Part shown: one piece after another, positions 8,552 through 24,072 of the stretch
How the letters are laid out: every line of letters begins with the position of its first letter
Numbering within the stretch: position 1 is the stretch's first letter
DNA from: Paenibacillus sp. FJAT-26967
Lineage (GTDB): Bacteria > Bacillota > Bacilli > Paenibacillales > NBRC-103111
NCBI RefSeq assembly: GCF_001541095.1
Contig: NZ_LMXH01000004.1
Coordinates: 62,001 to 126,000, forward strand
Reading direction: 5' to 3'
Length of the DNA: 64,000 bases
Notes under the pieces: generated by a model
The model's input: the letters and a program-made list of their open reading frames with translations, nothing else
The model's database searches: none
Told to the model about the DNA's origin: nothing
Translations under genes and position numbers: made by a program

Positions 8552-8722
8552 CCAAGTTATTGTTATATGCAACGGGCAGAGCCGTGTCATAAGTGGCTGT
8601 AACGGTTGGGACTTGATGGCCGGGAACGGGCGTATAGTTAACAGAAAAATAAGGGTATACCAATGGGAATTTAGCGGATAATTGATATAGTACACCTAGT
8701 GGAAACAGATTGGAGAGGTAAT

Positions 8723-9325
8723 ATGGGAAATACGGATAAGTTCGAAATGATTGCTAATACATATGACACTCCTGAAAGAATCCAAATTGCAAAAGTATCA
8801 TCTGATGCCATACGTGAATATTTAGTTGACGCTAATAGCAAGAATGCTATTGATTTTGGGTGTGGAACGGGTCTTGTCGGAATGAACTTGGTGGACGATT
8901 TTAATTCTATGCTTTTTCTGGATACTTCACAGAACATGATTAATCAAATCAAGCAAAAAATTGCTGATTTTAATATTCAGAATGCAGATACGTTATGCTT
9001 TGATTTTGAAAAGGAAGGCCTATCAGATTTACATGCTGACTATATCTTTATGGCTCAGGTTCTACTCCATATTCATGATGTCGAATCCGTTTTATCAAGA
9101 TTATACGAGGTTCTAAATGAGGGAGGGCACTTGCTAATTGTAGATTTTGATGAAAATGAAAAAGTGGTTTCAGATCTCGTTCATAACGGATTTAATCGGA
9201 CAGAGCTAACTGACATGATGACCAAGATAGGGTACAGGAATATTCAATCCAAAACTTTCTATAGTGGAAGTAAAATATTCATGGGACAGGATGCATCTAT
9301 GTTTGTTCTGGATTCTCAAAAATAA
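8723..9325 (+). CDS. class I SAM-dependent methyltransferase
   Basis: A 200-residue methyltransferase. The SAM-binding motif I is IDFGCGTGLVG, followed by the acidic end of strand 2 (FLDTS) and the post-motif DYIFMAQVLLHI and GGHLLIVDF, typical of the Methyltransf_11/12 group. The substrate cannot be told from sequence. The ATG at 8723 has GGAGAGG six bases upstream, which makes it a better start than the GTG at 8699. The gene stands alone after the leuA terminator. The next 280 bases up to 9606 hold no gene I can support. Confidence 0.8.
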   Translation: MGNTDKFEMIANTYDTPERIQIAKVSSDAIREYLVDANSKNAIDFGCGTGLVGMNLVDDFNSMLFLDTSQNMINQIKQKIADFNIQNADTLCFDFEKEGLSDLHADYIFMAQVLLHIHDVESVLSRLYEVLNEGGHLLIVDFDENEKVVSDLVHNGFNRTELTDMMTKIGYRNIQSKTFYSGSKIFMGQDASMFVLDSQK

Positions 9326-9606
9326 ACTTTTAGCTGGAAAGTATCCGGTTAGCAGACTGGGAAGCATGTGAATGTGGTCATCCACGTGACATAACACCGG
9401 GGCAATGTGACCGCGATGCTGAGGCAGCAGGGAGATGCAGGATGCCCGACCGATTATATGTTTTATTTGATGGAGCGGCAGGAAGATGGGCGGTAAATGG
9501 AGCGGAGCGATGGGCGTCCCCATCCACCAAGGCCGTCATTGAAGAACAACAAGATGGTATCATATGGATGGAGACAAATGCGAGCCGATTCTCGACGGAA
9601 ACGTTT

Positions 9607-10107
9607 TCAGAAGGCCGAGGCTTGTTTAACAGTAGACCATTGAATGTGCGGAATTTGTTCGTCATTAACTGTAATTGTTCCTACACATATATTTGACCGG
9701 GCAGGATTTTCTAAGTAATGCTGAATTGTAAACCTGATGGCTTTTGAAATTTTCAGGTTTAATAATTCACTCTTATGAATCCAAAACAAGTCTCCTTCTT
9801 CTGAAGGGATAAAGTTTCTATGCGTTGTCTCCCCAAAATAAACGTATTGCTGCCTGATTTCACCATTACCATCTTCAATCAGAATGTATTTAAGTGTAAA
9901 ATTCTCTATCTCGTTCTCCTTAAAGCCTGTTTCCTCTTCGATTTCCCTGTAGCTTGCTTTCATCGGAAAGTTTAACTCCTCGTGCTCAAGATGCCCGCCG
10001 ATGCCTCCCCAAAACTCGAAATTAAAAATCTTGCTGTTGGCCTTCTTCATCATTAATACATATTCTTGATGGCTCAAGAATGCCGTTGCCATTTGTCTGA
10101 TTTCCAC
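9607..10107 (-). CDS. Nudix hydrolase
   Basis: A 166-residue hydrolase of nucleoside diphosphates linked to another group. The Nudix box is visible as GGHLEHEE, nine residues, then REIEEETGF. The usual spacing between the first glutamate and REUxEE is seven, so there is a two-residue insertion. The N-terminus VEIRQMATAFL..VLMMKK is typical of the fold. I choose the GTG at 10107, because GGAGG lies eight bases upstream; a TTG at 10143 in the same frame has no such site. The substrate is unknown. It is monocistronic. Confidence 0.85.
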   Translation of the reverse strand: MEIRQMATAFLSHQEYVLMMKKANSKIFNFEFWGGIGGHLEHEELNFPMKASYREIEEETGFKENEIENFTLKYILIEDGNGEIRQQYVYFGETTHRNFIPSEEGDLFWIHKSELLNLKISKAIRFTIQHYLENPARSNICVGTITVNDEQIPHIQWSTVKQASAF

Positions 10108-10198
10108 AATACTGCCCTCCGTAAAATTAGGATTAGTCTTCAATATAATTTTATCTTAATCCGCAAGTATCGGGAATGATTTCCACATACCCCAAAAA

Positions 10199-10223
10199 AG
10201 CACCCTCATATTATGAAGGTGCT
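10199..10223 (-). terminator. terminator of the hrt operon
   Basis: On the minus strand AGCACCTTCA pairs with TGAGGGTGCT and is followed by a run of T (10194-10198). It lies just past the hrtA stop codon. Confidence 0.75.
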
Positions 10224-10229
10224 TCTTCG

Positions 10230-10907
10230 TTATTGAATAATCAATCCATCTTTCATCGTGATGACATGATCTGCATAAGAGAGCATTTCTTCATCATGCG
10301 TTACGAGTAAGGTTGTAATGTTTAATTCTTTCGTCAAATTCCGGATGAGTGTCATGACATCCTTGGATCTTGTGGAGTCTAGACTTGCAGTGGGCTCATC
10401 GGCAAACAGCATTTTTGGCTTATGGATGATGGCACGTCCAATCGCAACCCGCTGTTTCTCTCCACCTGACAATGAGGCTGGATAGGCGTCTTTGCGATGG
10501 TCCATTCCGACCAATTTGAGTATCTTCAGGACTTCTTCTTTTTGCTCGCGTTTACTGATTTTGGTCTCTGACACATTAAGCATTAGCATGAGCTGATCTT
10601 CTACGGTAAGGAAAGGCACGAGATGAGAGGATTGAAAAATAAATCCGAACTGACTGGCGCGTATTTTGCGAATCTCTTCTTGCGTCATGTCGGTCATGTT
10701 CTTTCCCTCGAAAATGATTTGTCCGCCGGATGCGCGCTGAAGACCAGCAGCGATCGTAAGAAGCGTACTTTTGCCGGAACCTGAAGCACCTACGAGAGCC
10801 GTTATTTCTCCTTGCTGTTGAGTAAGGTTGATCCCGTTTAATACTTGTTCGTCGACTTCGCCATTCGTAAATGTTTTTCGTACGTCTTGTATTGTGAAGG
10901 TAGTCAT
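10230..10907 (-). CDS. hrtA: HrtA-like ABC transporter ATPase (haem efflux)
   Basis: The ATPase subunit of a MacB-type exporter, 225 residues. It shows Walker A GASGSGKSTLL, the Q-loop IFQSSHLVPFL, the signature LSGGEKQRVAIGRA, Walker B MLFADEPTASLD and the switch histidine in LLVTHDEEM. The start is the ATG at 10907, with AAGGAGATAT upstream, one base after the stop of the permease gene, so the two are co-translated. With the HrtB-like partner and the HssR-like box upstream, haem export is the likely role: such pumps relieve haem toxicity. The LolD/YknY branch would be the alternative. The sensor pair HssRS is not in this window. Confidence 0.78.
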   Translation of the reverse strand: MTTFTIQDVRKTFTNGEVDEQVLNGINLTQQQGEITALVGASGSGKSTLLTIAAGLQRASGGQIIFEGKNMTDMTQEEIRKIRASQFGFIFQSSHLVPFLTVEDQLMLMLNVSETKISKREQKEEVLKILKLVGMDHRKDAYPASLSGGEKQRVAIGRAIIHKPKMLFADEPTASLDSTRSKDVMTLIRNLTKELNITTLLVTHDEEMLSYADHVITMKDGLIIQ

Positions 10908-11974: not shown

Positions 11975-12045
11975 AGTATACTGCTGCAATATGAACTGTG
12001 GATGAACTGAGGATGAACGGAGTATGTACGGATTATGAATGGAGA
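11975..12045 (-). promoter_or_regulatory. hrtBA promoter with five 11-bp direct repeats (HssR-like box)
   Basis: Read on the minus strand from 12045, five consecutive 11-mers begin ATTCAT, GTACAT, GTTCAT, GTTCAT and GTTCAT. The last two fit the published staphylococcal HssR form GTTCATATT-N2-GTTCATATT, with the second copy complete (11988-11996). Ten bases after the last GTTCAT lies a -10 box TATACT (11975-11980), and there is no good -35 box. This is the geometry expected for an OmpR-family activator overlapping the -35 region. Confidence 0.75.
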
Positions 12046-12088
12046 GTTACAACTCCCTTTTTAGCTGCTCCTTGCGAAAACAAAAGAA

Positions 12089-12120
12089 AAAGAGCAGCTT
12101 CCTATAGGCAGCTGCTCTTT
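12089..12120 (-). terminator. terminator of the 12.2-13.1 kb gene pair
   Basis: AAAGAGCAGC (12089-12098) pairs with GCTGCTCTTT (12111-12120). On the minus strand it is followed by TTTTCTTTTG, so it most likely ends the gene pair whose stop codon is at 12167. Confidence 0.7.
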
Positions 12121-12166
12121 CTTTCGTTGAATAAGTTAGGAGAGGTTGTTTTCGCGTTTGCTTACT

Positions 12167-12646
12167 TTAATATTCCCCTTTAATTACAAAAAACGAGCCC
12201 CGAATAGTTCCGGCTAATTTAGACTTCTGCCTGGCAAACTTAAACTTCCCTTCTAACTCCCTGGGAACCTCCATCCCTTCGGCAAGCTTAAAACCGACAG
12301 CACGCTTCTTCGGGTCATCAACCGTATACATAACGTTAACCTCAAGGCCATCCTCATAAATGATATAGGCGAATTGGATATTATCCACTTGAAAACGCGA
12401 CGTTTCCAAAGGTTTGGCCGCAAACTCAATAGCACGTTCTTCTTTCAAAATCCGGTTCACGTAATGGAGGGTTTCCTGGCTTTCGCTGGCCGGTACAACC
12501 GTAAATTCATGCTTGTATTTGTTCATAAAGTAACGGGCTTCATTAGCTCGTAAACCGGCAAGCGCTTCTGCTACAGGTGAAGACTCTAGACCAACCGCAG
12601 ACACATCTTTAAAATCAACGATATAAGACAATTCCATTCCCCCCAT
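12167..12646 (-). CDS. conserved small protein coupled to a GyrI-like protein, function unknown
   Basis: About 159 residues, soluble, with no signal peptide. The start ATG at 12646 overlaps the stop codon of the preceding gene as TAATG, so translation is coupled; a second ATG three codons on has GGGGGG immediately before it. I do not recognise the family with certainty. The sequence is a mixed alpha/beta protein (KYKHEFTVVPASESQETL; FQVDNIQFAYIIYEDGLEV) of roughly the size of an effector-binding or tRNA-synthetase-beta-like fragment. Its partner is an effector-binding protein and both lie opposite a WYL regulator, so a small-ligand sensing role is possible. Confidence 0.6.
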   Translation of the reverse strand: MGGMELSYIVDFKDVSAVGLESSPVAEALAGLRANEARYFMNKYKHEFTVVPASESQETLHYVNRILKEERAIEFAAKPLETSRFQVDNIQFAYIIYEDGLEVNVMYTVDDPKKRAVGFKLAEGMEVPRELEGKFKFARQKSKLAGTIRGSFFVIKGEY

Positions 12647-13125
12647 TATTTCCTGACAACAGGAATCCACATCTCACCAACAAACAAACCGTTTCGCTGT
12701 CCCATCTCAACCGTTGCATTAGGACCGCCAACATAGGCATAATCTTGTGCTTCCGGCAGGACTTGGCCAAAGGCAATGCCGGTGAGCGTCTGACTCAATT
12801 CCTCGGCCGTGTTGCCTTCTCCTTTAACAACGAGGTATTCTCCTTTAGGAAATTGGATAACCCGGGTTGCTTCCGGTAAAGACGCCTCTGTCATTACGCC
12901 GGCATAGTACATCATCTTGTTATTCACCGCTTCGTTCACGGCAAAGATATAGTCATTGGCAGCAATGGCTTTTAAAGCGTCAAGCCTTCCATCTTGTTCC
13001 ACTGATTCCCAAAAGTCCGCCTTCTCTTTGTTTATGCCGGCATAGTCTGTGTAATGGCTCTGGAGCTCAGTTCCGATACCCAAAACGATAAAGCTGTTCT
13101 TTTCTTCTAGTGTATAATTTGTCAT
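12646..13125 (-). CDS. GyrI-like / AraC-type effector-binding domain protein
   Basis: A 159-residue stand-alone small-molecule-binding domain, as in AraC-family C-termini, SbmC/GyrI and Cass2-type proteins. The typical pattern is seen: a first strand IVLGIGTELQSHY, a helix with FWESVEQDG, then YAGVMTEASLPEATRVIQ, FPKGEYLVVKGEG, and an end with QRNGLFVGEMWIPVV. The ATG at 13125 has AAGGACGG upstream and is preferred over one at 13155. It is the first gene of a coupled pair and is divergent from the WYL regulator at 13235, which probably controls it. Confidence 0.75.
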   Translation of the reverse strand: MTNYTLEEKNSFIVLGIGTELQSHYTDYAGINKEKADFWESVEQDGRLDALKAIAANDYIFAVNEAVNNKMMYYAGVMTEASLPEATRVIQFPKGEYLVVKGEGNTAEELSQTLTGIAFGQVLPEAQDYAYVGGPNATVEMGQRNGLFVGEMWIPVVRK

Positions 13126-13234
13126 ATTCAATCCCGTCCTTTTCTTGAAATTCATTAATGATTTGTCTTTTCACTTGATGAGTTTATAATAGCCTTAAAT
13201 CATGTCAAAAAGTGATACTGTTTAGGGAGGCCCG

Positions 13235-14197
13235 ATGAAAAAAGTTGAACGGATTAATATCATCATGCGGTATATTAACAACCGCGCCAACTTTACCATT
13301 TCTGAAATCATGCGGGAATTTAATATCTCTCGTTCGACAGCTATTCGGGATATACGTGAAATTGAAGCCATGGGGATGCCGCTGGTAGCTGAAGTTGGAA
13401 GGGATGGGGGTTATTTCGTGATGAATAACTCTGTCCTGCCCACGGTCCGCTTTACCGATAATGAGATTAAAGCTCTTTTTATTGCCTTTATGGCGACAAG
13501 AAATCAACAACTTCCATATTTAAAGAGTCGTCAGTCTTTAGCTGAAAAATTACTGGGCCTCATTTCGCAAAATCAGCAAGATGACCTTGTTCTTTTAAAT
13601 GGAATCTTGCTTTTTGAAGGAACCAATCCCCATAATCCCGATCTGCTTGATCTGTCGGATTTGCCCCATCCTATGTTAGAAAAACTCATTCAAGCACTTC
13701 TTTCGGACCGCTATTTATTGGTTTCCATTCAAGAGGAGGAGGGAATAAAGTCTTATCCCATTTATCTCTTGCACCTTTATCGTGAGAAAAGTCAGTGGCA
13801 AATTGAAGGCTTTTACTTAAAGGATGAGAAAAGGATGGTTTTTCCTGTAGACAATCTCACTGATGTTAAGCCATATTCTGCGGAAAAAAGATTAAGTAAG
13901 AAAAAGATTTTAGAAAAACTGAGCAAGCAGGAAGAAGCAATTAATTTTGTCCTGGAGCTTGGTCCGAAGGCGATTGCCCAGTTCAAGAAATACCATCCTT
14001 TAAAAGTTTCGATTGCCTATACGAATCCTTACCAAACCACCGCTATCCTGAAGAATTTTATCCATGTTCATAATTCCGAAGAATTGACGGAGCTGACAAA
14101 TTGGCTGCTTTTCCTTGGCGGAGATATCAAGGTCAGGGAAGTGCCGGAAGAGATCTTAGAAGTTTTACAAGAAAGATTAGGTTTATTCTGCCCATGA
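13235..14197 (+). CDS. YafY/DeoR-type regulator with WYL domain
   Basis: A 320-residue transcriptional regulator. The N-terminal winged helix reads IMRYINNRANFTISEIM and FNISRSTAIRDIREIEAMG, followed by the wing VGRDGGYFV. The C-terminal two thirds holds a WYL-type ligand domain (KSYPIYLLHLYREKSQWQIEGFY) with the motif weakly kept, and a WCX-like end. GGGAGG lies upstream of the ATG at 13235. About 110 bp separate it from the divergent effector-binding gene pair, the usual arrangement for local regulation. Ligand unknown. Confidence 0.82.
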   Translation: MKKVERINIIMRYINNRANFTISEIMREFNISRSTAIRDIREIEAMGMPLVAEVGRDGGYFVMNNSVLPTVRFTDNEIKALFIAFMATRNQQLPYLKSRQSLAEKLLGLISQNQQDDLVLLNGILLFEGTNPHNPDLLDLSDLPHPMLEKLIQALLSDRYLLVSIQEEEGIKSYPIYLLHLYREKSQWQIEGFYLKDEKRMVFPVDNLTDVKPYSAEKRLSKKKILEKLSKQEEAINFVLELGPKAIAQFKKYHPLKVSIAYTNPYQTTAILKNFIHVHNSEELTELTNWLLFLGGDIKVREVPEEILEVLQERLGLFCP

Positions 14198-14307
14198 GCA
14201 GGGCTGTAATGAGGAGTAATGCGTCCCAATATAGGGCAGAAGCCTCTGTAATTCCCTGCCTCGCAGCTGCATACCGGGACCGGTCCGCGGTCGCCGGCAG
14301 TCAAAAA

Positions 14308-14336
14308 AAGAGTGAACGCGGGGTACGTTCACTCTT
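14308..14336. terminator. bidirectional terminator
   Basis: AAGAGTGAACG (14308-14318) pairs perfectly with CGTTCACTCTT (14326-14336). Runs of A precede it, so it works for the convergent nucleosidase operon; it also closes the WYL gene. Confidence 0.8.
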
Positions 14337-14353
14337 CACTCTTAGGTTGCCGC

Positions 14354-15289
14354 TTATACCGTCAATGTCTGAATAAAATGCTCCTGGAACCGCTTGGCGT
14401 CGACACCGGTGCAGACATTGACGTTCGGCCGGTCGGTACACCGCGGACGCAGATCGGCGATGGTTCGGCCATAGGAGTGAATGCCCTCCAGATCTACCTG
14501 GAGTACCATTGGCTGAACCTCGACCAGGCCCGGATCGATCGCAACGGCTACCGCTAACGGATCATGCAGGGCGCAGCCTTCCCGGTCGCCATAGGCTTGC
14601 CGGTAACCTCCGATATAGTAGGAGGTTATATCGGCCAAGAAGCGGGTCAGATCCGAATCCCGCTCTCTCCATCGCTGAACATCCTTCAGGCTGAGCTCGG
14701 TCTGCATGGTCACATCAAGTCCGACCAGCGTAATCGGAGCTCCGGATTGGAAGACGAGCTGGGCCGCTTCGGGATCGGAATATATATTCGCTTCCGCATG
14801 CATCCGGCAGTTGCCCGCTGCCCCCACGGCTCCGCCCATCACGATAATCTGCTGCACCAGCGATATAATCTCTGGGGCATGCACAATGGCCGCGGCCAGA
14901 TTGGTCAAAGGGCCGACACAGATTAGCGTCACTTGCTTGGGGTATCGCCTGATTTGATCCACCATGAAAGCCGCCGCGGGCGTTGACACGGGCCTGCCTT
15001 CCGGATCGGGGAACGTCAAGTCGCCAAGACCTTTCTCGCCATGAAATCGGGCGGGATAGGCTTTCATAGAGGGATGGAACAATGGGGCGGCTTCCCCAGC
15101 CGCGACAGGAATCCCGGTTGCTCCTAACCGTTCCAGCACATGAAGCGTATTGCGTGTTGCGTACTCCACCGGTACATTTCCGAAGCAGGTTGTAATCCCG
15201 ATGACATCCAGAGCCGAGGACCGGACAGCGTAGGCAATCGCCAGCGCATCGTCAACCCCTGTGTCCACATCCAATAATACTCGGTGCAT
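14354..15289 (-). CDS. nucleoside hydrolase (first of two paralogues)
   Basis: A 311-residue inosine-uridine preferring nucleoside hydrolase that splits a nucleoside into ribose and free base. The calcium and ribose-binding signature LDVDTGVDDA is at residues 6-15, with GNV, GPLTNLA, MGGAV, AEANIYSDPEAA and the C-terminal HDPLAV that carries the second calcium ligand. It is the last gene of the nucleoside operon, 27 bp after its paralogue, with an AGGAAGGAGG site. Having two diverged paralogues suggests different nucleosides. Families like this also include hydrolases of modified nucleosides, so the exact substrate is open. Confidence 0.88.
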   Translation of the reverse strand: MHRVLLDVDTGVDDALAIAYAVRSSALDVIGITTCFGNVPVEYATRNTLHVLERLGATGIPVAAGEAAPLFHPSMKAYPARFHGEKGLGDLTFPDPEGRPVSTPAAAFMVDQIRRYPKQVTLICVGPLTNLAAAIVHAPEIISLVQQIIVMGGAVGAAGNCRMHAEANIYSDPEAAQLVFQSGAPITLVGLDVTMQTELSLKDVQRWRERDSDLTRFLADITSYYIGGYRQAYGDREGCALHDPLAVAVAIDPGLVEVQPMVLQVDLEGIHSYGRTIADLRPRCTDRPNVNVCTGVDAKRFQEHFIQTLTV

Positions 15290-15316
15290 GAATCATCTTC
15301 CTCCTTCCTGTAACTG

Positions 15317-16264
15317 TTATGAAAGCACCGTGCGAATGTAATGCTGAAGGAATTCTTCTTCACGGACCTGCATGCATACGGAGGCGTTGGTCCGTGTCTG
15401 CGGATGTCTGAGGTCGACCAGCGTCGCTCCTGAGGAGACCGGTCCCTTGGTCTCGATATAGACGTAATAGTCCTCCATCTCCACAAGGGATGCATTCTCG
15501 GCGACAGCCAGTGCCAGCGGATCATGCATCAGCCGGTATTTCCCCTCGTTCAAGCGCTCGCTTGCCTCGAAGCTGAATGTGAACATATGATGCAGGAATG
15601 CTTGTAATTCTGCCTGTTCATCGGTAAAGCCGTTCATGAGTTCATGATAATGAGCTTGGCTGAATTTGGCCTTCGAGGTCACGTCGAGGCCTACCATCAC
15701 AATCGGAATCCCCGATTCGAACACCCGGTGCGCCGCTTCCGGATCTCCATGAATGTTGGCTTCGGACACGGGTGTCGTATTGCCAGGCACCTTGATGGCG
15801 CCTCCCATCAATACCAGCTTCGCCTTCTGCGCAATGGAGGGGTCCTTGGCGAGAGCGACCGCCAAATTGGTCAGCCTGCCGGTGAACACCAGGGTAATGT
15901 CATGTGCCTGTTCCCGCACCTTCCGCACGATGAAATCGGACGCCTTCTCGTCCACCGGCAGCTGGCGCGACTCAGGCAGTTCATAGCCCGCGAGACCGTT
16001 TGCCCCATGAATGGCGGTTACGTTCTCGCGGCGGGGGCGGAATAAAGGGGCGTCCGCTCCCATGGCAACCGGAATCTCGTAACGGGGTTGCACCAATTCC
16101 AGCACCCGAAGCGTATTATCCGTCGCCTGCTTCACATCCACGTTGCCGAATACCGTTGTGATGCCTTCTATATGCAGCCTATTGGATTTAACGGCGAAGA
16201 TGAGCGCCAGGGCATCATCCACGCCGGTATCCACATCCATCAGGATGTGCTTAACCTGCTCCAT
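15317..16264 (-). CDS. nucleoside hydrolase (second paralogue)
   Basis: A 315-residue member of the same family. The signature MDVDTGVDDALAL is at residues 9-21, with FGNVDVKQATDNT, GRLTNLA, LMGGAIKVPGN, SEANIHGDPEAAHR and MHDPLALAVAE. The binding-site residues next to the signature differ from the neighbour, so substrates probably differ. The ATG at 16264 has AGGGAGTG just upstream; an in-frame GTG at 16288 overlaps the stop of the upstream ATPase gene and is less likely. It is tightly packed with the ECF transporter genes, so the base it releases probably comes from nucleosides taken up by that transporter. Confidence 0.88.
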   Translation of the reverse strand: MEQVKHILMDVDTGVDDALALIFAVKSNRLHIEGITTVFGNVDVKQATDNTLRVLELVQPRYEIPVAMGADAPLFRPRRENVTAIHGANGLAGYELPESRQLPVDEKASDFIVRKVREQAHDITLVFTGRLTNLAVALAKDPSIAQKAKLVLMGGAIKVPGNTTPVSEANIHGDPEAAHRVFESGIPIVMVGLDVTSKAKFSQAHYHELMNGFTDEQAELQAFLHHMFTFSFEASERLNEGKYRLMHDPLALAVAENASLVEMEDYYVYIETKGPVSSGATLVDLRHPQTRTNASVCMQVREEEFLQHYIRTVLS

Positions 16265-16284
16265 ATCGTCACTCCCTTGTTCCC

Positions 16285-17091
16285 TCACTTATGTTTGGCA
16301 AGCTCGTCCGCAAGCTCCGGTATCGTCAGGATATTATGACCGATATCCAGGGAGTAGCCGAGTCTGCTGATATGCGGCTGCTTCAGCATCGCCTGCTCCA
16401 GCACATCCAGATTCCAGAAGATGGCCCGTTTATCGTCATCCGCAATAACTTGACGATTAGCCATGACGATGACCCGCTGGAAGTTGTTCACGACAAATTC
16501 CATATCATGCGTGATCGTGATAATGGTTTTTCCTTCTCCGCGTAATGTTTCGATCAGATGGGCGAGCGTTTTCATGGCCGGAATATCCTGGCCTGCTGTC
16601 GGCTCATCCAGAATGATGACACTGGAATCCATCGCAATCACGGAGGCAATGGTTACGAATTTACGCATGGAGTAAGGCAAATTGTACGGATTTTCCTTGA
16701 GAAACGGAACGACACCGGCCAGCTCCACCGCTTTCATGACGTTCGCTTTGACCTGTTCCTCCGGGAGACCCAGCTTGCGTGGGCCGAATTCGATCTCGCT
16801 GTACACATCATTATGGAAGATCTGGTCGTCCGGGTTCTGGAACACATAGCCGACCTTTCTCGATATTTGAGCGGTCGTATAATCACGCGTATTCCAGCCG
16901 TCGATGACAACATCACCCTCGGAAGGCTTGAGCAGTCCGTTCATCATCTTGACGGTGGTTGTTTTACCCGCCCCGTTCTGGCCGACAATCGCAACCGATT
17001 CGCCCTTACTGAAGGACATGTTAACCCGATCCACCGCTTTATAGCCGCCCGGATAAGCGAAGGAAACATTCGTCAAAGTCAGAAAGCTCAT
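16285..17091 (-). CDS. ECF transporter ATPase (EcfA-type) with degenerate signature motif
   Basis: One of two ATPases of an energy-coupling-factor transporter, 268 residues. Walker A is GQNGAGKTTTVK, the Q-loop YVFQNPDDQIF, Walker B SVIILDEPTAGQD and the switch TITHDMEF. The ABC signature, normally LSGGQ, reads LPYSMRKFVTIAS here, so one of the two ATP sites formed with its partner is probably weak or inactive. The start overlaps the stop of the partner ATPase gene by ATGA. The pair lies between EcfT and the nucleosidases in a single operon. Confidence 0.88.
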   Translation of the reverse strand: MSFLTLTNVSFAYPGGYKAVDRVNMSFSKGESVAIVGQNGAGKTTTVKMMNGLLKPSEGDVVIDGWNTRDYTTAQISRKVGYVFQNPDDQIFHNDVYSEIEFGPRKLGLPEEQVKANVMKAVELAGVVPFLKENPYNLPYSMRKFVTIASVIAMDSSVIILDEPTAGQDIPAMKTLAHLIETLRGEGKTIITITHDMEFVVNNFQRVIVMANRQVIADDDKRAIFWNLDVLEQAMLKQPHISRLGYSLDIGHNILTIPELADELAKHK

Positions 17092-17948
17092 ACTTTAACC
17101 TCCTTATTCATCCATGTCTTCACCGCTTTGATGGCTTCTTGTTCCGTTAACGGTATGCTGCCCAGATCCATCTGCCGCTTGCGCATTTCCATGCCGAACA
17201 GCGAATATTGGGGAAGAGCGGCCCCGAACGCAAGCGCACGCTCATCGGTAAGAATTTCTTTCGTGTTTCCTTGCATGGCCACTTCACCCTCGTTCAGCAG
17301 GATGATATAGTCCGCATATTCGGCAATCAGCTCAATTTTGTGCTCGACTAGAATGATAGTTTTTCCCTTGTTCTTCATCAGTTCGATAATCTTGAACACA
17401 TCTTCGGTGCCCTTAGGATCAAGCTGCGAGGTAGGCTCGTCAATCACCAGTACATCCGGCTCCATGACGATAATGGAAGCGAGGGCGACCCGCTGCTTCT
17501 GACCGCCGGAGAGCTCGAACGGGTTTTTATCCCGCAAATAATCGATTCCCAGCATTCCGATAACTTGATCCACCTTTTCCACGATGAGCCCGGGATCCAT
17601 TCCGAGATTTTCAAGACCGAATGCAATTTCTTCAAACACGTTGTCCTTCACGCCGCTAATTTGTGTAAAAGGGTTCTGGAAGACATAGCCGATTTTCTGG
17701 GAAAGCTCGCCCAGTTCCCATTCGCGGATATCCTTACCATCAATCAGCACCTCTCCGCGCAGATCCCCTTTATAGAAGTGGGGGATAAACCCGCGGATGA
17801 CATTGCACAGGGTTGTTTTCCCGCCCCCATTGGCACCAACCAGTGCGTACAGTTTGCCTTTTTCAATGGTTAGATTCACGCTCTTGAGTGCATCAGACTC
17901 GCTGATGGGATATTGGTACGATAAATTCTTGATGGTAATTATACTCAT
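17088..17948 (-). CDS. ECF transporter ATPase (EcfA-type), canonical
   Basis: The second ATPase, 286 residues, with all motifs intact: Walker A GANGGGKTTLC, Q-loop YVFQNPFTQI, signature LSGGQKQRVALAS, Walker B VLVIDEPTSQLD and switch ILVEHKIEL. The ATG at 17948 has GGAGAG upstream and overlaps the ecfT stop codon as ATGA. A further ATGA overlap joins it to the next ATPase gene. Because the other ATPase lacks a normal signature, the heterodimer should be asymmetric, with this subunit contributing the working signature. Confidence 0.9.
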   Translation of the reverse strand: MSIITIKNLSYQYPISESDALKSVNLTIEKGKLYALVGANGGGKTTLCNVIRGFIPHFYKGDLRGEVLIDGKDIREWELGELSQKIGYVFQNPFTQISGVKDNVFEEIAFGLENLGMDPGLIVEKVDQVIGMLGIDYLRDKNPFELSGGQKQRVALASIIVMEPDVLVIDEPTSQLDPKGTEDVFKIIELMKNKGKTIILVEHKIELIAEYADYIILLNEGEVAMQGNTKEILTDERALAFGAALPQYSLFGMEMRKRQMDLGSIPLTEQEAIKAVKTWMNKEVKV

Positions 17949-18694
17949 AGCGCAACTCTCCAAATAATTAGGATAGCAAGCAGTACAAACAGCAAAATTT
18001 GAACGAGCCGGTCATACTTTGTTTTCTCCAGTTTATAGATGCTGCTTTTTTTGACATTGGCTGAGAAAGCTCTCGATTCCAGCGTAAGTACCCGTTCCTC
18101 CGTGCTTGCCACCGATCCGAGAATTAGTGGACTAAGCGTCGGCAGGAAGGCCTTCACGCGGACAAACAGCTTGCCTTCGGTTTCAACGCCTCTTGTTTTT
18201 TGTGCGTCCATGATGACATGGGTCAGCTTTTTCATCTCCGGAATGAGCTGGAGTGTGGATAAGATGACATAGGTTACCTTGGGCGGCAAGCCGATCTGTT
18301 CGAGGGAATAGACCAAATCTTTGACCTTGGTGATTCGGAAGAACAGAATGAATGCCGATGCTATCGCCACGATTTTCGATGTGAGGAACAGGGCGAACTC
18401 AATTCCTTCCCGCTTGATGGAGAAGATGCTCCAACTCCACAAGATGTCATTGCCGGGATAGAAAAAGCTTTGCAGAATAAAGATGAACACCACAATCATC
18501 AGCAGGGCCTTAATCGTCAGATTGGAAAATTCCTTAAAGCAGCCGGCAAAGTAGGCCAGCATCATACAAATCGGCAGAATCGCGTAGCTGAATCCGTAGC
18601 CGGGTACTATAAAGGCCGCCAAACATAAAGTCATGGTAATCATAAACTTGCTGGTTGGATAAAGACGGGTCAACATGAACCGTTCATTTTTCAC
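17945..18694 (-). CDS. ECF transporter transmembrane component EcfT
   Basis: A 249-residue membrane protein that links the S component to the two ATPases. It has about five membrane helices and the two coupling motifs of EcfT: DAQKTRGVET and the shorter ESRAFS (both of the Ala-Arg-Gly type). The best start is a GTG at 18694, six bases after AGGAGGAGG; an ATG at 18721 overlaps that site and is rejected. It overlaps the next ATPase gene by four bases. Placing T, A and A genes next to the S gene marks a dedicated (group I) ECF system. Confidence 0.87.
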   Translation of the reverse strand: MKNERFMLTRLYPTSKFMITMTLCLAAFIVPGYGFSYAILPICMMLAYFAGCFKEFSNLTIKALLMIVVFIFILQSFFYPGNDILWSWSIFSIKREGIEFALFLTSKIVAIASAFILFFRITKVKDLVYSLEQIGLPPKVTYVILSTLQLIPEMKKLTHVIMDAQKTRGVETEGKLFVRVKAFLPTLSPLILGSVASTEERVLTLESRAFSANVKKSSIYKLEKTKYDRLVQILLFVLLAILIIWRVAL

Positions 18695-18738
18695 TAGAAC
18701 CTCCTCCTCCTGAAAGCGCATCCATTATTGATTGCAGA

Positions 18739-19338
18739 TTATTTCTTTTTTATGAAAATCGCGCCGTAGTTCAGCTTGGATAAGTATCTCGGAGACATTT
18801 TCATAACGATGACAAAGGCAATAATGTTACTGATGACTTTGTCGAAGCTTTCCACCAGAATTTTGGTCGAGAATACCGCCGTCCAGATCTTCTGTCCGGA
18901 AGCGAGGAATGTAGCGACCACGGCATCGGAGGAGTTGCCGGTCGCTCCGCCGAACATCAGCACCTGGATCGGCGATGCAACGATCAGCACGGCCAGTACA
19001 ACGGCAAATGAAGACAAGATCACTTTCCACAGCTTCGTATACATGCCTTTCATGGCCAGCAGGCCGACCACCAGACCAACGGCCATTTGTACAGGTGTAA
19101 ATGCGAACGAGACGGGGTTCGTTATTCCGACAACGAGATTGGTGCTGGCCCCTGTAACCATTCCGACCCAAGGACCGCCGATCATGGCTGTCAGTATCGT
19201 TCCGATGGTGTTCAAGTAGATCGGGAGCTTGAGCAGCAGCACAATTTGAGCACCGACAAAGTTGATCGCGATACCGATAGGAATTAATAAAATGGCCAGC
19301 AAAGAAAAATCATATTTAAGTCCGCGTTTAATTCCCAC
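18739..19338 (-). CDS. ECF transporter substrate-binding S component, predicted nucleoside or base specific
   Basis: A 199-residue membrane protein with about five or six helices and a basic C-terminal tail (YGAIFIKKK). The start is GTG at 19338 after AGGAGGAATTC. Segments such as LPIYLNTIGTILTAMIGGPW and GMVTGASTNLVVGIT have the small-residue helix pattern of S components, which dock on EcfT. I do not recognise it as a known vitamin family (RibU, ThiT, BioY, FolT). The operon holds only nucleoside enzymes otherwise, so a nucleoside, nucleobase or modified nucleoside is the inferred cargo. Confidence 0.78.
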   Translation of the reverse strand: MGIKRGLKYDFSLLAILLIPIGIAINFVGAQIVLLLKLPIYLNTIGTILTAMIGGPWVGMVTGASTNLVVGITNPVSFAFTPVQMAVGLVVGLLAMKGMYTKLWKVILSSFAVVLAVLIVASPIQVLMFGGATGNSSDAVVATFLASGQKIWTAVFSTKILVESFDKVISNIIAFVIVMKMSPRYLSKLNYGAIFIKKK

Positions 19339-19388
19339 TGAGAATTCCTCCTAGAGCATAGTTTGTCATAAAGCGATTCCATTAAAGA

Positions 19389-20099
19389 CTATTCGTCAGC
19401 CAAGATAGTATGGAGCGCGACCTCTACCATGTCATGGAAGGACTTCTCACTGTCATGATGGGATGAGCGTTCATTAGTCAGCAGATGACTGCCTACCGTT
19501 AAGATGGACAAGGCTTTTACGCCGTATTTGGCAGCAAGCGTGTACAGGGCGGCACTTTCCATCTCGACCGCGAGCACTCCAAAATCCATGAATTTATGAA
19601 GGCGGTCATAAGTTTCCCTATAGAATTCATCGGAATTGTATATATTACCGACAAATATATTTGCTTGCGTATCCTGAGCCAGTTGATAGGCTTTGCTTAA
19701 CATGCCATAATCAGCTGTCGGCGCGTAATTGCAGCCATAAAATATTTTTTCCATCAGATTGCTGTCCGAAGATACGGCTTGGGCCAGTACGATGTCGCGG
19801 ACCTGAAGTTCTTTTTGCATGGCGCCGCATGTACCGATGCGGATCAGCTTTTTGACCCCGTAATCCTGAATCAGCTCTGTCGCATAAATGCTCATGGTCG
19901 GGTTGCCCATTCCCGTACCTTGGACAGAAACCCGGGTCCCTTTATAAAGGCCGGTGTACCCATACATGCCTCTTACTTCGTTATAACAATACGCTTCCTC
20001 TAAAAAGTGCTCTGCTACAAACTTGGCCCGTAAAGGGTCGCCGGGCAGCAACACGCGTTCTGCGATTTCTCCTTGTTTGGCTCCTAGATGTATGCTCAT
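19389..20099 (-). CDS. deoD: purine-nucleoside phosphorylase, DeoD type
   Basis: A 236-residue hexameric purine nucleoside phosphorylase: purine nucleoside plus phosphate gives base and (deoxy)ribose-1-phosphate. The family start (IHLGAKQGEIAERVLLPGDP), the phosphate site GTGMGNPTMSIY, and the C-terminal AVEMESAALYTLA with ILTVGSHLLT, where the catalytic aspartate of most members would stand as SDH, are present; here SH replaces SD. The final NERSSHHDSEKSFHDM is standard. AGGAGGAG precedes the ATG. It is the first gene of the operon, upstream of the ECF transporter genes. Confidence 0.92.
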   Translation of the reverse strand: MSIHLGAKQGEIAERVLLPGDPLRAKFVAEHFLEEAYCYNEVRGMYGYTGLYKGTRVSVQGTGMGNPTMSIYATELIQDYGVKKLIRIGTCGAMQKELQVRDIVLAQAVSSDSNLMEKIFYGCNYAPTADYGMLSKAYQLAQDTQANIFVGNIYNSDEFYRETYDRLHKFMDFGVLAVEMESAALYTLAAKYGVKALSILTVGSHLLTNERSSHHDSEKSFHDMVEVALHTILADE

Positions 20100-20131
20100 C
20101 GGGCTCCTCCTGCTTACTGGCTTCCCTTTTA

Positions 20132-20189
20132 GGAAAGCGCTTTATTTTCTTTCTGTCTTCATCATAGTAAGAATCGGAGGGAGAACCAA
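20132..20189 (-). promoter_or_regulatory. nucleoside operon promoter with a possible cre site
   Basis: On the minus strand: TTGGTT (20184-20189), 17 bp, TATGAT (20161-20166). About 15 bases past the -10 box lies ATAAAGCGCTTTCC (20132-20145), which matches 11 of 14 positions of the ideal cre sequence TGAAAGCGCTTTCA. A CcpA block at this place would act as a roadblock, placing the operon under carbon control. Confidence 0.5.
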
Positions 20190-20239
20190 GACCAGAATGT
20201 TACGGAGCTTAACGGAAAAATACAACCATGCGCTGCAGG

Positions 20240-21685
20240 CTATATTAATTCCTGGCGGATATTTTCCAGATCCCGTTTGGTCGGTATCGTTGAAATGATG
20301 ACCACGGGTACCGAAGTCAGCTTAACGGGAAACGTGCTAATTACAAAATCAATGCCGTGCTTCCGGATTATCTCATCGGTAAGACCCTCCATAATGGAAG
20401 TGTTGATAATCAGCTCGTCGCCAATTTCATTCTTGATGAGCGTGGCTACGTAATGGCGGATTGAGAATTCCTCGCCGATCAGCAAAAACGCTTTTTTGCT
20501 GTTGTACCGCAAGCTGGAGCTGATCAATAGCGTCAGCTTGGTCAGATGATAGTCGTTATACAGAATACCGGGATAGCGCTGTGCCCATTTCTGCATGCAG
20601 TTCTGTACGCCTTGGTACAGGGGGCGGCATTCTCTTTGGACATATTCTGTCAGGCTGCTTGTCGAGATCGCTGTCATATCGGGAAGCGCATTTTCCAGCC
20701 GCAGTTTCTCGAAGAATTCCCCGATTTCCCAGATAAACCGATCGGTCATATCAATGGTAGGGTAAGCGTCGAGCGCCAGCATGAGGAAATGATTGACGAT
20801 TCTATATTTTTCTTCTTGGATCTGCACGAGATTTGCTTTCTCCAGCGATACCATTGTTCTGACCTTCGCGTCATCATAATAGTTATATTGGCTCAAACTA
20901 AACATAGCCTGAAGAAAACGGATTTCATCCAGCGGCAAATGAATGGAATAGCGCTGTTCAAGCGTTCGTGCCAGGGCGGTAACGGAAGAATGGAGCATGC
21001 TGCTCTCCCAGTCGTATTGACCTCTGGGGACGTCCGCATGTTTGTCCTGCAGCACTCTCGTAATAATGATAGCGGCCAGAAAGGATAAGCTTCTTTTGGC
21101 ATTGAGGAAATATACGATATCATTCTCCGACTCGACTGTCGTGATATATTCGTGGATTTGAGCCTGGTCCATGCCGGGGAACGGCCAGCCGGAGAATTCG
21201 TAAGCATCGTAATACAATTTCAAGTAAAAATAACGGATATTAATTTCACTGCCCTTGACCTCGGGCATGGAATACGCGATACGCAAATGGTATGGCTTCA
21301 ACTCATGGTTGTTTAACCGGATAATCAGCTTTTTCAGCGAGGAAGCGCTCATATACAGCTTGTCGGCCAGCTCTTCCAGTGAATAGCGCCCTCCCTCGGC
21401 GAAAAGCAGATCGAGCAGCCGATAAAAGGTTCTCTGCCTGTATATGGAGGAAATGACTTCGCCAATCGCCACATTCCGTTTTTCGTAATGGAGAATGACG
21501 CCTTTGCCCCGGGAAATTTCAATATGAATCGAAGGAGGCAACTCCTGCTTGGTTTCGTCAATGATTTTACGGATTGTTTTGTCTGAGACGCCAATCTGTT
21601 TTTCAATCTCGGCCAAGGTGAACCATCGATATTCGGAATCGAGCAGGGTCAACAGTTTTAGTGTCAATAGAAATTCCTTTTCCAT
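20240..21685 (-). CDS. Mga/BglG-like transcriptional regulator
   Basis: A 481-residue regulator. The N-terminus has a winged helix (WFTLAEIEKQIGVSDKTIRKII) followed by a second helix-turn-helix (YSLEELADKLYMSASSLKKLI), the double-HTH plan of Mga, AtxA and BglG-type activators. The middle is helical and PRD-like but with few conserved histidines. The C-terminus (KKAFLLIGEEFSIRHYVATLI, then DFVISTFPV) resembles a PTS EIIB-like domain. AGGGAGAG precedes the ATG. Its stop codon lies 140 bp from the start of deoD on the same strand, so it probably activates the nucleoside operon. The ligand is unknown. Confidence 0.75.
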   Translation of the reverse strand: MEKEFLLTLKLLTLLDSEYRWFTLAEIEKQIGVSDKTIRKIIDETKQELPPSIHIEISRGKGVILHYEKRNVAIGEVISSIYRQRTFYRLLDLLFAEGGRYSLEELADKLYMSASSLKKLIIRLNNHELKPYHLRIAYSMPEVKGSEINIRYFYLKLYYDAYEFSGWPFPGMDQAQIHEYITTVESENDIVYFLNAKRSLSFLAAIIITRVLQDKHADVPRGQYDWESSMLHSSVTALARTLEQRYSIHLPLDEIRFLQAMFSLSQYNYYDDAKVRTMVSLEKANLVQIQEEKYRIVNHFLMLALDAYPTIDMTDRFIWEIGEFFEKLRLENALPDMTAISTSSLTEYVQRECRPLYQGVQNCMQKWAQRYPGILYNDYHLTKLTLLISSSLRYNSKKAFLLIGEEFSIRHYVATLIKNEIGDELIINTSIMEGLTDEIIRKHGIDFVISTFPVKLTSVPVVIISTIPTKRDLENIRQELI

Positions 21686-21783
21686 GCGTTTGTTCTCTCC
21701 CTTCCCGAAAGAATCGGTTAGATGTTAGTTGTCTCACAAGTTGATAAACCCAGATAGGAGATGGAGTGAACATATCTATAAAT

Positions 21784-21836
21784 AGCCGCGTAAAACGTTG
21801 TAGAAGACGTCTCGTTTCGCGCGGCTTACAGTCCAT
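21784..21836. other. hairpin between the regulator and the haem operon
   Basis: AGCCGCG (21784-21790) pairs with CGCGGCT (21830-21836), with an inner AAACG/CGTTT pair. It lies about 100 bp upstream of the Mga-like gene. It could be a leader structure of that gene or the end of a lost transcript; there is no clear T-run. Confidence 0.35.
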
Positions 21837-22004
21837 GTGATTTTCTAATTTTAATAAGTATGTCCCAGGACAAGTATCCTTATCTTATATGTAATCGTAA
21901 TGTGCTTTGAAGTTTTAATCAATCGCTATATCAAGACTAATAAAATAACACCAAAATAGAATTCCGTTGCATGGAAGTCGTATCTATGATAGTCTATCTA
22001 ACAT

Positions 22005-22024
22005 TGAGAATGATTATCATTATT
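22005..22024 (+). promoter_or_regulatory. Fur box of the haem-import operon
   Basis: TGAGAATGATTATCA (22005-22019) matches the 7-1-7 Fur motif TGATAATNATTATCA at all but one base and continues into TTATT. It lies 20 bp before the start of the lipoprotein gene, so iron should repress the operon. Confidence 0.85.
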
Positions 22025-22043
22025 AAAGGAGTAGAATAACATT

Positions 22044-23054
22044 ATGAATTCATCGTACAAAAAAGCATCGCTTCTCCTTGTTTCCATACTAGCTCTTAAT
22101 ATCTTGGCAGCATGCGGCAACAACAATAATGCATCACCGGCGTCCAGCCCTGCTGCGGGTCAATCTGCTAGTCCTTCCGCTACGGCTCCGGCAAGCGCAC
22201 AACCTGCTGCCTTGACTGTCGATGAAACGAAAGCGAAGGAGCTGCAAGCTAAGTTCGGCGACAAGAAGCCGGAGAAGGTTGTCGTCACTTCTGTCGCGCT
22301 TGCCGAGATGCTCGATGTGCTCGGGGTCATGCCGGCCGGCATACCTACTTCGAAGACGGCTCTTCCTGCAGCATTCGAGGGCGTCACTCAGATTGGTTCG
22401 GCGCTTAAGCCTGATGCGGAGATTATTGCCAGTCTGAAACCGGATGTCGTGTTAGGTCCGAAATCGATCGAGGACAGCCTGAACAAACAGTTGGGCTCCG
22501 CAAACCTCAATTTGCGCTATCTGCCGACAGATTCGCTTGAAGATTTAAAGCTGTCCCTGGTTGTACTCAGCCGTGTGTTCGGCCAAGAAGAGAAAGCAAG
22601 CGCGCTTATCGAACGTCTGACACAAGAAGAAGCGGCAGCAGTCAAGCAGGCGGAAGGGAAAGCCGCGCCTAAGGTTATGTTCCTGTTCGGATCGGCGGAA
22701 TCATTCATGCTGATGAATGAGAGCACATTTCCTGGCAGCCTGGCCAAAAAACTGGGAGCCACAAACATTGTATCAGCGACGCTGAAAAGCAAGGAAACTT
22801 ACGTGCCGCTCGATATGGAGAGTGTCGTGGCGGCTAATCCGGATGCCATTCTGCTTGTCGCGCACGGAGATCCGGAAGCGGCTAAGAAAGCGTTTGAGGA
22901 AGACGTGAAGAAAAATGGCGCATGGGAGAAGCTTAATGCTTTCCGGAACAACCGTGTTGAAGCGCTCGATTACAACTTGTTCGGTGTAGCATCCATCGTG
23001 AAAGCTCCTTCGGCCTACAAAGAGATAGCAAACAAGCTATTCCCGACTAACTAA
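22044..23054 (+). CDS. IsdE-like haem-binding lipoprotein of an ABC importer
   Basis: A 336-residue class III substrate-binding protein. The lipobox is LAAC at residues 21-24, followed by a long Ser/Ala/Pro linker, so it is tethered to the outer face of the membrane. Several stretches match my memory of staphylococcal IsdE: GIPTSKTALP, ASLKPDVVL, VAHGDP and LFGVASIVKAP. The histidine of VAHGDP corresponds to the axial haem ligand of IsdE. The methionine ligand seems to be replaced by leucine (GSALKPD), so coordination may differ. AAAGGAG precedes the ATG. It leads a five-gene Fur-boxed operon. Confidence 0.8.
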   Translation: MNSSYKKASLLLVSILALNILAACGNNNNASPASSPAAGQSASPSATAPASAQPAALTVDETKAKELQAKFGDKKPEKVVVTSVALAEMLDVLGVMPAGIPTSKTALPAAFEGVTQIGSALKPDAEIIASLKPDVVLGPKSIEDSLNKQLGSANLNLRYLPTDSLEDLKLSLVVLSRVFGQEEKASALIERLTQEEAAAVKQAEGKAAPKVMFLFGSAESFMLMNESTFPGSLAKKLGATNIVSATLKSKETYVPLDMESVVAANPDAILLVAHGDPEAAKKAFEEDVKKNGAWEKLNAFRNNRVEALDYNLFGVASIVKAPSAYKEIANKLFPTN

Positions 23055-23076
23055 CAGCAACCGGAGGAACAAGAAG

Positions 23077-24072
23077 ATGAAATCCGCGACATTGCGATCG
23101 TCTAGTAAAATTATCGAGATCATCACCTTTGTCCTGCTAGTGATCGTTGTTATCGTCTCGATTGGTCTGGGCAGTGTCAAAATTCCATTCGGAGAGCTGC
23201 TCAGTACGTTGTTTGGAAATTCAACGGGCCAATACGACACGATTATGTGGGATATCCGTATACCCCGGGTGCTGCTGGCACTCTTCATCGGGGCTAATCT
23301 GGCTATCTCCGGAGCGATGCTTCAAGCGGTTATGAACAATCCGCTCGCAGATCCCGGTCTAACCGGCGTGTCGAGCGGCGCCGCCGTAGCCGCATTGTTC
23401 ATTCTGCTCGTTATGCCCGGGCTGAGCTCTGTGCTGCCGATTGCGGCAATTGGCGGTGGCGCTGTTGCTTCGGCTATGGTTTACCTGCTCTCATGGAACA
23501 AACGGGGAATCACGCCGATTCGCGTCATTCTGTCCGGTGTCGCCGTGAACGCTATCTTCGGCGGCTTTATCGGTCTCATGTCGATTTTGTACAGCGACAA
23601 GCTCCCGGGCGCCCTACAATGGCTGAACGGCAGTTTGTCCGGCAAAGGCATGGGAGATGCCCTGACTATCGTTCCTTACTCGGCCGTTGGCTGGATAGCC
23701 GCATTCTTCTGTATCCGCAAAGCGAATACGCTGCGGCTCGGGGAGCAAGTGGCCGTCAATCTGGGGGAGAGCATGACCAAGGTTCGGATTCTGCTCTCTC
23801 TTGTGGCGGTCTATCTTGCGGCCGTATCCGTATCCGTCGTCGGCTTGATCGGTTTTATCGGTCTCGTTGTGCCGCATATGGCTCGTATTTTCGTCGGATC
23901 CAACTACAGCCGGCTAATCCCCATGAGTCTCATGCTCGGCGCGATCGTCCTGGTCGTTGCCGATACGGCGGGGCGCACGTTGTTTGCTCCGCTGGATATA
24001 CCGGCTGGAATCATAATGGCGATTGCGGGTGGTCCGTACTTCTTGTATCTGATGCGTAAAGGAGAGGTATGA
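23077..24072 (+). CDS. FecCD-family permease of the haem importer
   Basis: A 331-residue membrane permease with about nine or ten helices, of the BtuC/FecCD family. Family segments are clear: WDIRIPRVLLALFIGANLAI, GLTGVSSGAAVAA, GLIGFIGLVVPHMAR and LDIPAGIIMAIAGGPYFLYL. Only one permease gene is present, so it should act as a homodimer, as for IsdF and HmuU. The start ATG has CGGAGGAAC upstream, 22 bp after the lipoprotein gene, and its stop is followed at once by the ATPase gene. Confidence 0.9.
   Translation: MKSATLRSSSKIIEIITFVLLVIVVIVSIGLGSVKIPFGELLSTLFGNSTGQYDTIMWDIRIPRVLLALFIGANLAISGAMLQAVMNNPLADPGLTGVSSGAAVAALFILLVMPGLSSVLPIAAIGGGAVASAMVYLLSWNKRGITPIRVILSGVAVNAIFGGFIGLMSILYSDKLPGALQWLNGSLSGKGMGDALTIVPYSAVGWIAAFFCIRKANTLRLGEQVAVNLGESMTKVRILLSLVAVYLAAVSVSVVGLIGFIGLVVPHMARIFVGSNYSRLIPMSLMLGAIVLVVADTAGRTLFAPLDIPAGIIMAIAGGPYFLYLMRKGEV

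Follow-up and report, generated by a model that had tools for sequence, protein, structure and literature searches.

ECF transporters have been described mainly for vitamins and metals. In the 64,000 bp stretch of Paenibacillus sp. FJAT-26967 DNA analysed here (the window), the genes of an ECF transporter lie among genes for nucleoside-cleaving enzymes, which raises the question of what this transporter carries. A sequence-only reading of the locus had proposed a dedicated transporter for purine nucleosides or for a modified nucleoside such as queuosine.

Operon organization

Gene families of the operon were assigned with Pfam and NCBIfam. The seven genes named in that reading, encoding an S, a T and two A components, DeoD and two nucleoside hydrolases, were all recovered on the minus strand at 20099-14354, tightly packed in the order DeoD-like, S, T, A, A', NH1, NH2. 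The features of the locus are:

20240..21685, minus strand: MafR/AcpB/EbpR-type (Mga-like) transcriptional regulator (NF053736, 176.8 bits, cut-off 130)
20161..20189, minus strand: candidate promoter TTGGTT-17-TATGAT (picked by eye; the -35 element is weak and the intergenic region well conserved)
20132..20145, minus strand: candidate site for CcpA, a CRE-like box ATAAAGCGCTTTCC whose core AAAGCGCTTT is palindromic
19389..20099, minus strand: DeoD-type nucleoside phosphorylase variant (NF004489, 336.6 bits, cut-off 230)
18739..19338, minus strand: ECF S component (NF045596, 119.8 bits, cut-off 180; S-component fold; tree)
17945..18721, minus strand: ECF T component, CbiQ/EcfT family (PF02361, E 5.6e-24)
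17088..17963, minus strand: ECF ATPase A (best match TIGR04520, 229.7 bits, below the cut-off of 315)
16285..17091, minus strand: ECF ATPase A' (best match TIGR04521, 222 bits, below the cut-off of 330)
15317..16288, minus strand: nucleoside hydrolase NH1 (PF01156, 293 bits)
14354..15289, minus strand: nucleoside hydrolase NH2 (PF01156, 326 bits)
14307..14337, minus strand: intrinsic terminator, probable end of the operon (13-pair stem and T-run just 3' of NH2)

From deoD to NH2 the genes are separated by gaps of 50 and 17 bp, overlap by 19, 4 and 4 bp and end with a gap of 27 bp. Since all spacings are overlaps or gaps of at most 50 bp and a hairpin follows NH2, the seven genes likely form one transcript. 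The same gene order was found in eight other Paenibacillus genomes (76-99% identity) with very low dN, so the arrangement is not due to chance. At the 3' end, the operon is faced by an HTH_11/DeoR-type regulator gene on the plus strand (13235-14197).

Two other ECF T genes are present in the genome, one in a set beside BioY and one with an S component of the riboflavin/PF12822 type. As these sets carry S components of their own, the module in the window, with its own S, T and two A genes in one operon, is a dedicated one, as the earlier reading had it. The features of a group I ECF transporter were found in the S-component fold and in the T component and two ATPases encoded in the S operon; ATP-driven uptake of the bound substrate, the remaining property of this group, is predicted.

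The S component

Upon comparison of the S protein with NCBIfam, the only good match was NF045596, the CD3073 family of putative ECF S components, of which it is not a member at 119.8 bits against a curated cut-off of 180. The score with the FolT family was 15.3 bits (E 0.012, cut-off 60) and with the general family PF12822 24.9 bits (cut-off 30.7), and none of the vitamin S families in the NCBIfam and Pfam profiles exceeded its cut-off. By these profile scores the S protein is outside every known vitamin S family, which bears out the suggestion that it does not represent a known vitamin class. The window protein itself resembles FolT only marginally, its branch as a whole more clearly (profile E 2.5e-11 to 5d0y). 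Conserved residues of the S protein include Asn26, Thr133 and Asp138.

An AlphaFold model of the S protein (mdc92fe5c1174, built from 44 homologues, pLDDT 86) has the S-component fold and superimposes on ThiT with a VIA Z of 14.3 and an rmsd of 3.0 over 159 aligned residues. After structural re-ranking, the top 19 VIA entries were all solved S components of several vitamins. ThiT, FolT and RibU were tied in the fold search with none clearly closest, and thus the fold alone does not reveal the cargo. These three proteins share the fold (Z 13-14), but are only 14-23% identical to the window protein in structural alignments, have other cargo and lack nucleoside enzyme partners.

The S protein is also weakly similar to 5TMR-LYT (PF07694) receptor domains, in agreement with the published link between the S-component fold and LytS-type sensors (PMC11109136); this was noted along with matches of about 580-660 aa in the search of the class. 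In two relatives, an N-terminal S-component-like domain is part of proteins of about 1180 and 1240 aa (L106:4995-8522 and L108:7977-11684), each followed by a protein of about 400 aa belonging to one family; these long proteins are possibly receptors rather than transporters.

Relatives of the S component and their gene neighbourhoods

Relatives of the S protein were gathered from 398 Bacillota genomes, 198 genomes of the order, 398 of the class and a named genome collection, and 8-18 kb was read around most of them. Genes for nucleoside hydrolases, uridine phosphorylases and DeoD were counted as nucleoside-cleaving partners if they lay on the strand of S and no more than 7 kb away. For S proteins at least 40% identical to that of the window, T and A genes of their own were present in all 22 loci and such a partner in 21, counts that are inflated by near copies. 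The lone exception is locus L098, where a 720-aa ADP-ribosylglycohydrolase-like protein heads the S-T-A-A' operon (8600-10762) and the S protein is 51% identical to that of the window; an ADP-ribosyl compound or another N-glycoside is a possible substrate there.

The nearest named family, CD3073 (NF045596), has the same fold, and in many of its loci S is accompanied by T and two A genes, as in the window. It differs in its partner: for CD3073 proper this is a TudS-related desulfidase (17 of 21 loci; nucleoside-cleaving gene in one), whereas the branch of the window pairs with nucleoside-cleaving enzymes, and the desulfidase is absent from all window-like loci read. The difference in nucleoside-cleaving partners between all window-like loci and the CD3073 loci gave a Fisher p of 3.5e-7, with loci that are not independent. 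A maximum likelihood tree of the S proteins separates the CD3072/TudS-related desulfidase loci from nearly all nucleoside-cleavage loci, a split by partner type that takes one change of label and has weak branch support. True CD3073 S genes stand directly beside the CD3072/TudS-related desulfidase gene in L091-L097, L101, L110 and others, a pairing that suggests import of a thio-base or thio-nucleoside by these ECF systems.

Members of the window's branch occur in Paenibacillus, Shimazuella, Vagococcus, Enterococcus and in many further families. S proteins of this branch are also found next to uridine phosphorylases as well as RihA-like hydrolases, and a ribokinase and an RbsR-like LacI repressor are recurrent extra partners, as in the order RbsR-NH-S-T-A-A'-RbsK of L218 and L222. 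Against a nucleoside importer speaks that among the more distant window-like S proteins (below 40% identity) only 20 of 39 loci hold a nucleoside-cleaving gene, leaving about half with none nearby; no convincing further enzyme partners were seen in the loci without a nucleoside hydrolase or uridine phosphorylase. A second S copy in genome G854 (L227:3733-8462) is accompanied by a GntR/UTRA regulator and a BtpA-family protein and by no nucleoside enzyme.

Taken as gene neighbourhoods, these data indicate that the importers of the whole window branch carry nucleosides, not vitamins. That an ordinary vitamin importer came to lie next to nucleoside genes by chance would agree with the mostly vitamin or metal cargo of characterised ECF transporters and with the distant similarity to FolT. 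We consider it most improbable, as the association with nucleoside enzymes recurs over many Bacillota families and is absent from the sister branch, and as the window protein scores below the cut-off of every vitamin family.

Exchange of the ECF module with NupC

The DeoD protein of the window was searched in 104 Paenibacillaceae genomes, and close orthologues (78-83%) of the variant were found in other genomes of this set. The S gene was not found in three genomes of the same genus carrying such an orthologue. All 11 loci of this kind that were read matched the window in regulator and DeoD variant, with NupC where the window has the ECF and nucleoside hydrolase genes. The arrangement Mga-DeoD variant-ECF-NH-NH was present in all nine ECF loci (the window and L058-L065), and NupC was absent there; NupC and the ECF module thus never occurred together in these 20 Mga-DeoD variant loci. 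In the DeoD tree the ECF loci form one group and the NupC loci another, with moderate to weak support (80/95, 72/9). In one NupC locus (L160:8698-10008, genome G599), a gene for a xanthine/uracil-type permease separates the DeoD variant from NupC, a hint that the base set free may be exported or imported there.

NupC is the classical nucleoside symporter. The two types of loci have the regulator, the DeoD variant and the role of the locus in common, but the NupC loci have an ion-driven secondary transporter and no nucleoside hydrolases, whereas the window has an ATP-driven ECF complex. Since ECF and NupC alternate beside the same enzyme and regulator, this exchange is the strongest evidence for a nucleoside cargo; it is also a natural control that makes the nucleoside claim directly testable. 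The gene context makes a nucleoside cargo very probable, and we hold with good confidence that the ECF transporter of the window is a dedicated (group I) one and that it serves nucleosides. A standard cdd-nupC-drm-deoD cluster is already present in the genome, next to an rbsR-rbsK-NH-DcuC-like cluster elsewhere in it; the first counts against this conclusion, the need for a second importer being unexplained.

Import of free ribose or a free base, with the enzymes acting on nucleosides that enter otherwise, is very unlikely. It would fit the RbsR-like and ribokinase neighbours in the relatives, and the TudS-type desulfidase of the sister CD3073 branch may act on a thio-base. The commonest partners are, however, hydrolases and uridine phosphorylases, and the transporter exchanged at the locus is the nucleoside carrier NupC.

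If true, import of nucleosides as sources of carbon and bases by an entire branch would add to the cargo known for ECF transporters, and the superfamily formed by CD3073 and its sister, which has just a placeholder name, would receive its first substrate class. A literature search on CD3073, or on ECF transporters with nucleosides, uridine phosphorylase or desulfidase, returned nothing specific; most subscription journals lay outside this search, and an earlier prediction of this cargo is possible.

The DeoD variant and the nucleoside hydrolases

Asp204 and Arg217 of DeoD-type phosphorylases (E. coli numbering) protonate N7 of the purine. The DeoD protein of the window, to which this numbering applies with no offset, has Ser at both positions. 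The DeoD label thus holds for the family score, which is well above the cut-off, and fails for the catalytic pair. Ser204 and Ser217 were found in all 20 Mga-linked copies, against Asp and Arg in all canonical Paenibacillaceae copies tabulated, while the phosphate and ribose residues His4, Gly20, Arg24, Arg43, Arg87, Glu179 and Glu181 are kept in both. In comparison with the copy of L065, the dN of DeoD is 0.059, among the lowest of the operon (S 0.056), with dS saturated; given this low dN, the variant is maintained. In Paenibacillus sp. DMB20 (L059:8251-8960) it is split over two overlapping frames, by a frameshift or a sequencing error. Gln-x-Arg is the uracil-recognition motif of uridine phosphorylases, and it was not seen in the window DeoD in the alignment.

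In both NH1 and NH2 the PF01156 score and the Ca-binding DxDxxxDD and HDP motifs of IU nucleoside hydrolases were found, in NH1 as DVDTGVDD and HDPLA. The nearest solved structure to NH1 is 6zk1, labelled RihA, and that to NH2 is 6ba1.

In the E. coli enzyme, the double mutation Asp204Ala/Arg217Ala lowers the activity on adenosine about 400-fold and raises that on 7-methylguanosine (m7Guo), whose cleavage requires no protonation, about 5-fold (PMC6193948). With Ser204 and Ser217 in the variant, this gain makes cationic nucleosides such as m7Guo a testable option for its substrate; ordinary nucleosides may be cleaved poorly by it. The subfamily is the natural counterpart of a double mutant made in the laboratory, whose specificity is altered, and might uncover a pathway by which methylated nucleosides of RNA are salvaged.

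For the importer itself, a modified or cationic nucleoside is a possible cargo. That it takes positively charged nucleosides, either m7Guo from RNA turnover or nicotinamide riboside, and that the DeoD variant dropped the proton-donating residues as no protonation is needed, is a tentative reading that we consider doubtful. The strict conservation of the two serines, the retained ribose and phosphate residues, the very low dN and the behaviour of the E. coli mutant all argue for it. On the other hand, the window's replacement is Ser and that of the mutant Ala, the uridine phosphorylases and RihA-like hydrolases beside the window-like S branch fit ordinary ribonucleosides, and the presence of the variant in the NupC loci as well makes it uninformative about S. 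Unlikely, too, is the wider proposal of a new ECF nucleoside class, widespread in Bacillota, whose Paenibacillus version serves modified, cationic nucleosides (m7Guo, for example), cleaved by a DeoD that lacks Asp204/Arg217 and is inactive on ordinary purine nucleosides. A plain alternative is that the DeoD variant would be nearly inactive on purines, with NH1 and NH2 doing the cleavage.

Of the purine nucleosides proposed in the sequence-only reading, the nucleoside part is supported by the enzyme partners and the exchange with NupC. Purine in particular is not established, because the DeoD protein lacks Asp204 and Arg217 and the relatives occur with uridine phosphorylases and RihA-like hydrolases.

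For the preferred nucleoside importer, we infer the ligand, the direction of import, the enzyme activities and the regulation as follows. The S protein would bind a nucleoside outside the cell with a probably high affinity, and the T component and two ATPases would power its import. In the cytoplasm, NH1 and NH2 would hydrolyse the nucleoside to base and ribose, and the DeoD variant would cleave it by phosphorolysis. Ribose would enter carbon metabolism through a ribokinase encoded elsewhere in the genome and the released base would be salvaged. The MafR/Mga-type regulator upstream probably activates the operon, and CcpA probably represses it at the CRE-like box.

Queuosine as a candidate cargo

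In Clostridioides difficile, queuosine is salvaged through a QueK-QrtT-QueL operon, of which QrtT is reported to import preQ1, Q and queuine (PMC11477304). The general layout is the same as in the window, a nucleoside hydrolase, in that case QueK, accompanying an ECF S component. QrtT is described as relying on core ECF components encoded elsewhere and on a preQ1 riboswitch (PMC11477304), whereas the window has a dedicated module and CRE-like control. QueC, together with a QueE-like radical SAM protein, is encoded in the genome, and a partner of the QueL type was not seen. Queuosine, put forward earlier, was rejected as unlikely on these grounds, and on the lack of any match to QueT/QrtT (PF06177) in the whole genome and of any Rfam riboswitch at gathering scores, preQ1 included, in 12000-24000. 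As the CRE-like control and the ribokinase partners moreover point to carbon use, salvage of queuosine or queuine by this system is extremely improbable.

Regulation

Neither the regulator gene upstream of deoD nor the CRE-like box figured in the sequence-only reading. The regulator gene, whose product scores above the cut-off of the MafR/AcpB/EbpR family, is in the same position in the nine ECF and 11 NupC loci, and the protein is the probable regulator of the operon. The promoter at 20161..20189 is a weak candidate: promoter-like matches in a sigma-70 scan were not above those in shuffled sequences, and the promoter picked by eye falls below the scan threshold.

In all nine Paenibacillus loci the CRE-like box AAAGCGCTTT occupies the same place, about 33-46 bp 5' of deoD, one copy reading TTAAGCGCTTT. 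The box of the window has three mismatches on the operon strand and two on the other, and CRE-like boxes with one or two mismatches lie upstream of S in L066 and L068-L070 (Shimazuella, Vagococcus and two Enterococcus); in random 150-bp pieces, two mismatches or fewer occur in 5% and one or fewer in 0.7%. From its sequence, the box is a putative binding site of CcpA. The conserved box and the ribokinase partners suggest the use of ribose as a catabolite-repressed carbon source.
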